Source of the DNA: a virus
DNA: 24,130 nt
Virus record (IMG/VR): IMGVR_UViG_3300020395_000102
Span: 1 to 24,130 of that record
Reading direction: 5' to 3' (one strand)
The notes beneath the pieces were generated by a model that was not told where the DNA came from, ran no database searches, and saw only the letters and a list, made by a program, of their open reading frames with translations. A program made the translations under genes and the position numbers. The first letter of the stretch is position 1, and the number at the start of each line of letters is the position of its first letter. This document shows positions 605-9,040 of this stretch, one piece after another.

Positions 605-988
605 TTAGAAGGTGTACTTAACTCCAGCTTTAGCACCCCAGTTAACTACTTCTTCGTTAGAAGCTTCAGCAGTGATTCCAGAAAGCTCACCATAGATACC
701 GAATTGCTCAGTAGCAGCAACGTTGATACCAGCCTTACCAGAGAACTCAGTCTCAGAACCGTCAGTTCCGTCTACAGCAACGAATGAAGGACCACCTTGT
801 ACGTATCCAGAAACTTTCTCTGAAAGTTGACCTTCAATACCTACGTGTAGGTCTGTAGTAGCACCTGAATAGTCTCCATCAGGATAAGAAAGATTGCTTT
901 CTACATTCACATATGGACCAGCAAAAGCTGCACCAGCGAAGAGGAATGGAGATGCTGCTAAAGCAGCGATTGTTGATTTGATTGACAT
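605..988 (-). CDS. Secreted small beta-barrel-like protein
   Basis: A 127-residue protein with a clear Sec signal peptide: MSIK, a hydrophobic Ala/Leu/Phe stretch, then AFA at residues 21-23 as the likely signal peptidase site. The mature part (about 104 residues) starts GPYVNVESN and alternates polar and hydrophobic residues in short strands separated by Gly/Asp/Ser turns. It ends GAKAGVKYTF, with a terminal Phe as in outer-membrane beta-barrels. This resembles a small porin or OmpA-type barrel, but with at most about 8 strands. No enzymatic motif is visible. The gene has its own promoter (1109-1138), an unusual leader (1005-1094) and its own terminator (552-580), so it is an independent unit. 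A host-acquired envelope protein or a surface-altering factor is possible; function is inferred only from topology. Confidence 0.8.
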   Translation of the reverse strand: MSIKSTIAALAASPFLFAGAAFAGPYVNVESNLSYPDGDYSGATTDLHVGIEGQLSEKVSGYVQGGPSFVAVDGTDGSETEFSGKAGINVAATEQFGIYGELSGITAEASNEEVVNWGAKAGVKYTF

Positions 989-1004
989 GATTGTTTAAGT
1001 ATCT

Positions 1005-1094
1005 CGCAAGAAAAAATCCCTTGCGGATGATAGCATCCCCGACATGGGATACTGTATTACATTCGCAAAGGGTTACGATTCTTTCGAGTCCTTT
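1005..1094 (-). promoter_or_regulatory. Attenuator-like leader with alternative hairpins
   Basis: The minus-strand leader holds four pairable segments. These are 1 = AAAGG (1094-1090), 2 = CCCUUUGCG (1072-1064), 3 = CGCAAGGG (1025-1018) and 4 = CUUGCG (1010-1005). Segments 2 and 3 form an 8-bp stem with one bulged U, capped by an inner 8-bp hairpin (1053-1046 with 1039-1032) and followed by AUUUUUU, which is terminator-like. Segments 3 and 4 pair perfectly over 6 bp and put the U-tract in the loop; 1 and 2 pair over 5 bp. So 2:3 excludes 1:2 plus 3:4, the layout of a transcription attenuator. A 16-codon reading frame (1045-995) also crosses the region. It could instead be a plain terminator of the gp46 operon. 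Confidence 0.5.
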
Positions 1095-1108
1095 GTATGA
1101 TAGTATTT

Positions 1109-1138
1109 AGTATAACATAAACTTATGTAAACTGTCAA
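1109..1138 (-). promoter_or_regulatory. Near-consensus sigma70-type promoter with internal dyad
   Basis: On the minus strand a perfect TTGACA (1138-1133) and TATACT (1114-1109) are 18 bases apart; shifting the -10 to TTATAC gives 17. The spacer holds the dyad ACATAA-gt-TTATGT (1115-1128), a possible operator. The -35 overlaps the stop codon of gp46. It would drive the beta-barrel-like gene through the structured leader. Confidence 0.75.
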
Positions 1139-8580: not shown

Positions 8581-8608
8581 AAAAAAAGAGACCCTATTGG
8601 GGTCTCTT
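8581..8608 (-). terminator. Rho-independent terminator in the small-gene cluster
   Basis: Minus strand: AAGAGACCC, loop CAATA, GGGTCTCTT with the T run extended to seven (8587-8581). The stem is at least 7 bp and GC-rich. It lies after the 70-residue gene and the doubtful 41-codon ORF. Confidence 0.88.
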
Positions 8609-8994: not shown

Positions 8995-9021
8995 AAAAAA
9001 AGAGACCCCCGAAGGAGTCTC
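8995..9021 (-). terminator. UUCG-tetraloop terminator after gp23
   Basis: Minus strand: GAGACTCC, loop TTCG, GGGGTCTC, then seven T (9001-8995). The stem is 8 bp with one U-G pair and the C(UUCG)G tetraloop is exceptionally stable. It lies 19 bases after the gp23 stop codon. Confidence 0.93.
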
Positions 9022-9040
9022 TTGAATCTTGTAATATAAA

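Follow-up and report, generated by a model that had tools for sequence, protein, structure and literature searches.

An RNA leader of attenuator-like architecture before the Phage_OMP gene of T4-like cyanophages

What kind of RNA element lies between the promoter and the start codon of a small outer-membrane protein gene in a lytic T4-like cyanophage, and could it decide how many transcripts reach that gene? The question arises from the window, by which we mean the whole stretch of 24,130 nucleotides analysed here, a fragment of a T4-like cyanophage that carries gp46, gp47, PurS and other genes. A first-pass annotation had described four short segments before a beta-barrel gene that can pair either as 1:2 plus 3:4 or as 2:3, the latter resembling a terminator. 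All four segments were found on the minus strand, within a leader that spans about 1103-989.

Anatomy of the leader and its locus

The features of the locus are as follows.

1109-1138, minus strand: sigma-70-like promoter TTGACA-18-TATACT, 11/12 match, with TG before the -10 element
1104-1112, minus strand: late-promoter-like TACTAAATA, overlapping the -10 element (T4-type late consensus TATAAATA)
1094-1090, minus strand: segment 1, AAAGG, read from the sequence
1071-1091, minus strand: H0, the 5' element GG-ACU-CGA-AAGAA-UCG-UAA-CC, made up of part of segment 1 together with the C's that open segment 2; CGAAA and AUCGU are invariant in 113 leaders
1064-1072, minus strand: segment 2, CCCUUUGCG, able to pair with segment 3; its complementarity has a z of -3.9 relative to shuffled versions and lies below -2 in 96% of leaders
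1032-1053, minus strand: H1, an 8-bp hairpin with loop AUGUCG and two-sided covariation; GUCG is present in 198/203 cores
1026-1031, minus strand: linker AUCAUC joining H1 and H2; CAUC is invariant in 109 core sequences
1018-1025, minus strand: segment 3, CGCAAGGG, at once the 3' arm of the 2:3 stem and the 5' arm of H2
1011-1016, minus strand: U-tract of six U, 3' of the 2:3 stem and also within the H2 loop
1010-1005, minus strand: segment 4, CUUGCG, read from the sequence
1001-1028, minus strand: H2, which is the 3:4 pairing, with arms 1025-1020 and 1010-1005 and an extra pair C1026-G1003 past the bulged A1004
605-988, minus strand: Phage_OMP gene, PF24653 (Pfam E 3.8e-44), phrog_417 (PHROG E 2.8e-42), T4-GC 241, annotated DUF680; 127 aa
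557-581, minus strand: intrinsic terminator 3' of Phage_OMP, near-identical to that after the P-SSM2 homologue

The 114-nt leader folds at -34.1 kcal/mol compared to -20.6 +/- 3.4 kcal/mol for its shuffles (z -4.0), and none of 200 shuffles was as good. The 2:3 stem encloses H1 as its inner 8-bp hairpin (1053-1032) and is followed by six U (1016-1011), just as had been described. The gene does begin close behind segment 4, with its ATG at 988, 16 nt further on. The 1:2 pairing is weak, only 3-5 bp; what is conserved at the 5' end more closely resembles a short separate hairpin, H0, for which no covariation test is possible because its pairing is itself invariant. A 1:4 pairing (CUCG/CGAG) in the window's minimum-energy fold was rejected, as it is not kept in GGCCCG variants.

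The promoter that had been placed upstream of the leader is present there, at 1138-1109, and similar arrangements recur in the relatives. A sigma-70-like site lies upstream in 132/137 Prochlorococcus-type leaders by a loose pattern scored without control stretches, and a late-like site of the NNTAAATA type in 132/137 compared to 156/1400 control stretches; the loose sigma-70-like site and the NNTAAATA late-like site occur together in 127/137. A Shine-Dalgarno sequence was found within 20 nt of the start in none of 131 Prochlorococcus-type leaders, and a match within 25 nt of the start in 61/72 Synechococcus-type leaders. We also observed inverted repeats, AACTGKCACA...TGTGNCAGTT, that recur 0-80 nt upstream of the leader (L012, L047, L061, L083 and others), near the late-like promoter and on either side of it, with no enrichment in the window itself.

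The Phage_OMP gene, present in 465 phage records, encodes a small outer-membrane-like protein. Its homologue was called nonstructural in an evolution study of S-TIM4 (PMC6224464), whereas another study detected the protein in virions (PMC9146016). Passage of S-TIM4 on Synechococcus WH8102 yielded 13 different mutations in the homologous gene, many of them expected to disrupt its expression, and mutations in this gene arose only in passages on that host (PMC6224464), so tight control of Phage_OMP would make sense. The terminator at 557-581 is about the same as the one in P-SSM2 (L081:3065-3100) while the neighbouring genes are different, and thus promoter, leader, gene and terminator seem to travel as a single cassette. 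Two more strong intrinsic terminators on the minus strand of the window (8586-8608 and 9000-9023; stems of 9-10 bp plus T runs) mark the ends of other transcription units.

A two-hairpin core present in both phage types

The view of this element as a genuine RNA leader of the beta-barrel gene was borne out by its relatives. Among 217 distinct 100-nt leaders, 215 precede Phage_OMP and 215 contain the two-hairpin core H1 (loop GUCG), CAUC and H2, the remaining two in each case being truncated loci. This core is the deepest element and is common to both phage types. DNA similarity of the leader alone leads to P-SSM2, P-SSM7, P-SSM4, P-HM1/2, P-TIM68 and P-RSM6 at about 77-83% identity, and in every fetched Prochlorococcus phage match the leader stands before T4-GC 241. 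In Synechococcus phages, such as S-T4, S-P4 and S-SSM5, the 5' half is missing and the 3' half is kept as H1 (loop NNGUCGA), CAUC and H2; about 190 cyanophage records contain a short match that spans the region of H2. What lies upstream of the leader differs from locus to locus: gp46 is found there in only 6/55 metagenomic loci with enough upstream sequence, and others have a 2OG-Fe(II) oxygenase, a hypothetical gene, a glycosyltransferase, talC or other genes.

That H1 and H2 are real hairpins is well supported by covariation. In 109 core sequences 97.9% of 763 H2 cells are paired, with 119 two-sided changes compared to 44 in shuffled and 0-34 in slid controls. In 113 Prochlorococcus-type leaders all 7 pairs of H1 show two-sided covariation, and H1 and H2 together gave 206 two-sided cells against 71. 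As a tree-based null we used a substitution-preserving simulation on a FastTree tree that replays the observed substitutions in each column. Under this null, pairs of H1 (11-27, 12-26, 14-24, 13-25) and H2 (37-70, 39-68, 40-67) hold seven of the top eight ranks among all column pairs of the more diverse combined core alignment, with a best E of 0.005. The Prochlorococcus-type alignment alone is weaker, with one pair only clearly passing (best E 0.025). More than 30 columns are invariant across all 113 aligned Prochlorococcus-type leaders, which is far beyond chance.

The leader is also specific to its place. A core-model search of 14 whole phage genomes found the leader once in each, at the Phage_OMP gene; the only further match, a second one in S-P4 (E 3e-5), lies inside a tail assembly gene and was judged to be due to chance. 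An origin in the host was considered and rejected: among 151 Prochlorococcus genomes, model R2 gave a single real match, on a contig with the phage gene, and a weak chance match in G109, the leader being absent from the 150 other genomes apart from this chance match. The contig with the real match (L329, QCLS01000003.1, 189,106 bases) belongs to a Prochlorococcus single-cell assembly and carries the phage gene together with the leader; as it has the size of a phage genome, it is probably a phage that was sequenced along with the cell and assigned to the host bin. A conserved GAATGCCTCAACTACTCGC-like motif is often seen upstream of H1 in Synechococcus-type leaders (L086, L094, L187, L190, L192, L206, L257), flanked in some leaders by complementary arms that form a hairpin. 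In P-RSM4 this motif lies inside an annotated ORF, PRSM4_230, which ends at the Phage_OMP start.

Competing folds and what they may do

Prochlorococcus-type leaders consist of the core plus segment 2 and the U-tract. When the nascent RNA ends in the U-tract, folding predicts a terminator-shaped stem with at least 5 pairs between segments 2 and 3 in 134/139 of these leaders, so that the terminator-like fold first seen in the window is predicted for almost all of them. In full Prochlorococcus-type leaders the two folds are near-isoenergetic, with mean p(2:3) of 0.51, mean p(3:4) of 0.47 and an energy difference of -0.8 +/- 2.0 kcal/mol. The window's own leader is less balanced than average, 2:3 being predicted to dominate (p about 1.0, computed on the identical leader L001). 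Segment 2 is nearly invariant, and its complementarity to segment 3 reaches a mean z of -3.9 relative to its own shuffles. With relatedness uncorrected, 7 of 2000 permutations that re-paired the segments were as good as the natural 2:3 duplexes, and none of 2000 was as good as the natural 3:4 duplexes. It had been said that the idea would fail if close relatives no longer kept the alternative pairing, and both folds persist in them. Covariation in relatives, proposed as a check on all four segments, gave a mixed answer: it is strong for 3:4, as it is for H1, and in the leader alignment no two-sided column covariation was found for the 2:3 helix, which means that covariation neither proves nor disproves 2:3.

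Most Prochlorococcus-type leaders have at least 5 U in 8 (5-7) in the U-rich stretch, and a few have only 4 U in a row. The H2 loops of Synechococcus-type leaders are U-poor (mostly 2-4 U of 8), and these leaders, which have neither segment 2 nor the U-tract, are not bistable, with p(H2) of 0.93 and 0.04 for an upstream competitor. Furthermore, a diverged Prochlorococcus-type relative (L069) has lost both 2:3 and the U-tract while H1 and H2 are kept. Segment 2 and the U-tract are thus present or missing together and behave as one module, as a terminator would require. Besides the missing two-sided covariation of 2:3, the leaders with only 4 U in a row and the dominance of 2:3 predicted for the window's own sequence, two more observations speak against an attenuator: the outermost 2:3 pair, beside the U-tract, is impossible in 40/113 leaders in the alignment register, and Synechococcus-type phages manage without segment 2.

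The order of synthesis constrains any mechanism. Because the polymerase reaches segment 4 only once it has passed the U-tract, 3:4 cannot serve as an antiterminator; it is instead the fold open to RNAs that have escaped termination, and it is common to the Synechococcus phages. Termination could be prevented only by upstream events, be it the folding of H0 or 1:2, H1, the binding of a factor or an alteration of the polymerase. The model we favour, for which we see about as much to say in favour as against, is a cis-acting, bistable, attenuator-like leader that gates Phage_OMP. The ancient part would be H1, CAUC and H2 directly before the start codon, and in Prochlorococcus-type phages this core would have been extended into a switch resembling an attenuator. 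While RNA polymerase moves away from the overlapping early and late promoters, segment 2 would pair with segment 3 around H1, giving the terminator-shaped stem and U6, and a share of the transcripts would be expected to end around 1011-1016. The 2:3 stem may be prevented or resolved by a factor that binds the RNA at H0/segment 2 or at H1, or else by a polymerase that the phage has modified. After read-through, segment 4 would emerge, segment 3 would refold to form H2, whose loop then contains the U-tract, and Phage_OMP would be translated without a Shine-Dalgarno sequence. We infer that termination would really occur, that some trigger would relieve it and that H1 and H2, once formed, may have a role of their own.

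The main rival is a purely post-transcriptional leader, in which H1 and H2 make the mRNA more stable or govern its translation, as the two hairpins of E. coli ompA do, and 2:3 is a tuning competitor in the finished mRNA with little or no termination. The conservation of H1 and H2 in both phage types just before the start codon, the Synechococcus-type leaders that do without a U-tract, the missing Shine-Dalgarno sequence in Prochlorococcus-type leaders and the thermodynamic balance of full leaders, which fits a folding equilibrium, would all agree with this account, but it leaves unexplained why segment 2 and the U-tract after 2:3 come and go together; we consider it possible, though somewhat unlikely. 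If transcripts do end at the U-tract, the terminated leader might itself act in trans as a small RNA, and Phage_OMP would then depend on read-through. A 2:3 stem with U6 is a typical small RNA 3' end, and the ten invariant 5' bases (CGAAA, AUCGU) in 113 leaders go beyond structural need. Against this, the leader always stands before the same gene, once per genome, its conserved 5' part is missing in Synechococcus-type phages, and a search of both strands of 41 Prochlorococcus genomes for near matches to the conserved 5' segment found none, which makes a small RNA improbable.

Two further readings carry little weight. The stem lies directly 3' of gp46 in the window and has a terminator-like shape, as an ordinary gp46 terminator that happens to precede the next gene would; a promoter-like site sits between the gp46 end and the stem, however, and synteny contradicts the idea, since the leader stays with Phage_OMP and seldom follows gp46, so that we regard it as very improbable. 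Even less credence is due to ribosome-mediated, trp-type attenuation through a 16-codon peptide at 1045-995, which had been suggested as a leader peptide. The ATG frame exists, and a loop AUG is present in 109/140 leaders, but the start is not fixed in relatives, being replaced by UAG in 11 leaders; frames overlapping the gene start are split 24/24/22 over the three phases and vary from 2 to 149 codons, the frame begins inside the H1 loop, and segment 4 again comes too late. Returning to the attenuator-like leader, a more far-reaching version, which we put forward tentatively and think rather unlikely as a whole, is a host-adapted RNA switch. Phages isolated on MED4-, MIT9515- and NATL-type Prochlorococcus would carry a terminator-forming segment and U-tract, with no Shine-Dalgarno sequence, on an older two-hairpin leader; in these hosts the envelope protein would be gated by premature termination, possibly together with a released leader RNA, and it would be constitutively open in Synechococcus phages.

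Relation to known RNAs and to a second kind of control

Like transcription attenuators, whether trp-type, riboswitch or protein-controlled, this leader has exclusive pairings that share one strand and a terminator-shaped stem with a U-tract between promoter and gene. Conserved mutually exclusive pairings are present for 2:3/3:4, though 2:3 is without two-sided covariation, and the terminator stem with U-tract before a structural gene is a prediction. The leader differs from these systems in having neither a conserved translatable leader peptide with control codons nor a known aptamer, and in that segment 4, the alternative partner, follows the U-tract, which leaves only the weak 1:2/H0 among the pairings to prevent termination. 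Invariant unpaired bases in H0, the H1 loop and the linker are compatible with a riboswitch aptamer, with no match in Rfam.

The leader of the E. coli ompA mRNA contains two stabilising hairpins and likewise stands before an outer-membrane protein gene, with its hairpins near the 5' end; the present leader differs in its conserved loop and linker sequence, its U-tract and its alternative pairing. The put RNA of phage HK022 acts on RNA polymerase through two hairpins, and our leader, above all in its Synechococcus-type form, resembles it in having a pair of neighbouring hairpins a short way behind the promoter. Whereas put stands before a long operon, our leader stands before one gene that has a terminator of its own.

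T4-like cyanophages carry other structured 5' UTR elements, namely wcaG (RF01761), manA (RF01745), PhotoRC-II (RF01717) and the glutamine riboswitch glnA (PMC2864571, PMC9964418, PMC9602691). These are alike in kind but precede different genes, and their covariance models gave no match here. With E cutoffs of 5 for the window region and 1 for the relatives, no Rfam family matched; BsrF, mir-3931 and sbrA appeared at permissive thresholds as weak chance matches. The literature searched, outside which most subscription papers lie, contains no description of this leader, and the RNAs named there for cyanophages are others. It is a new RNA family with attenuator-like architecture, absent from Rfam 15, which joins the small set of cis-regulatory RNAs known from cyanophages and is kept in hundreds of related viruses of ocean cyanobacteria. 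If 2:3 does terminate transcription, the leader would act as a conserved checkpoint made of RNA in a lytic T4-like phage, one that takes different forms in Prochlorococcus- and Synechococcus-type phages and controls a gene reported to be costly to express in one Synechococcus host (PMC6224464). Such host-specific control is directly testable in cultured phages, P-SSM2, P-SSM4 and P-HM2 compared to S-TIM4.

Some phages have a second T4-GC 241 gene beside pstS, and these paralogues, PSSM2_247 in P-SSM2 and SSM2_218 in S-SM2, have no such leader. In place of the RNA leader, the stretch before PSSM2_247 (L081:3200-3282) contains CTTAACCTTCTCTTA, which fits the Pho box CTTA-N7-CTTA (PMC3037559). 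The two T4-GC 241 paralogues of P-SSM2 would, judging from these upstream sequences, be under two kinds of control.
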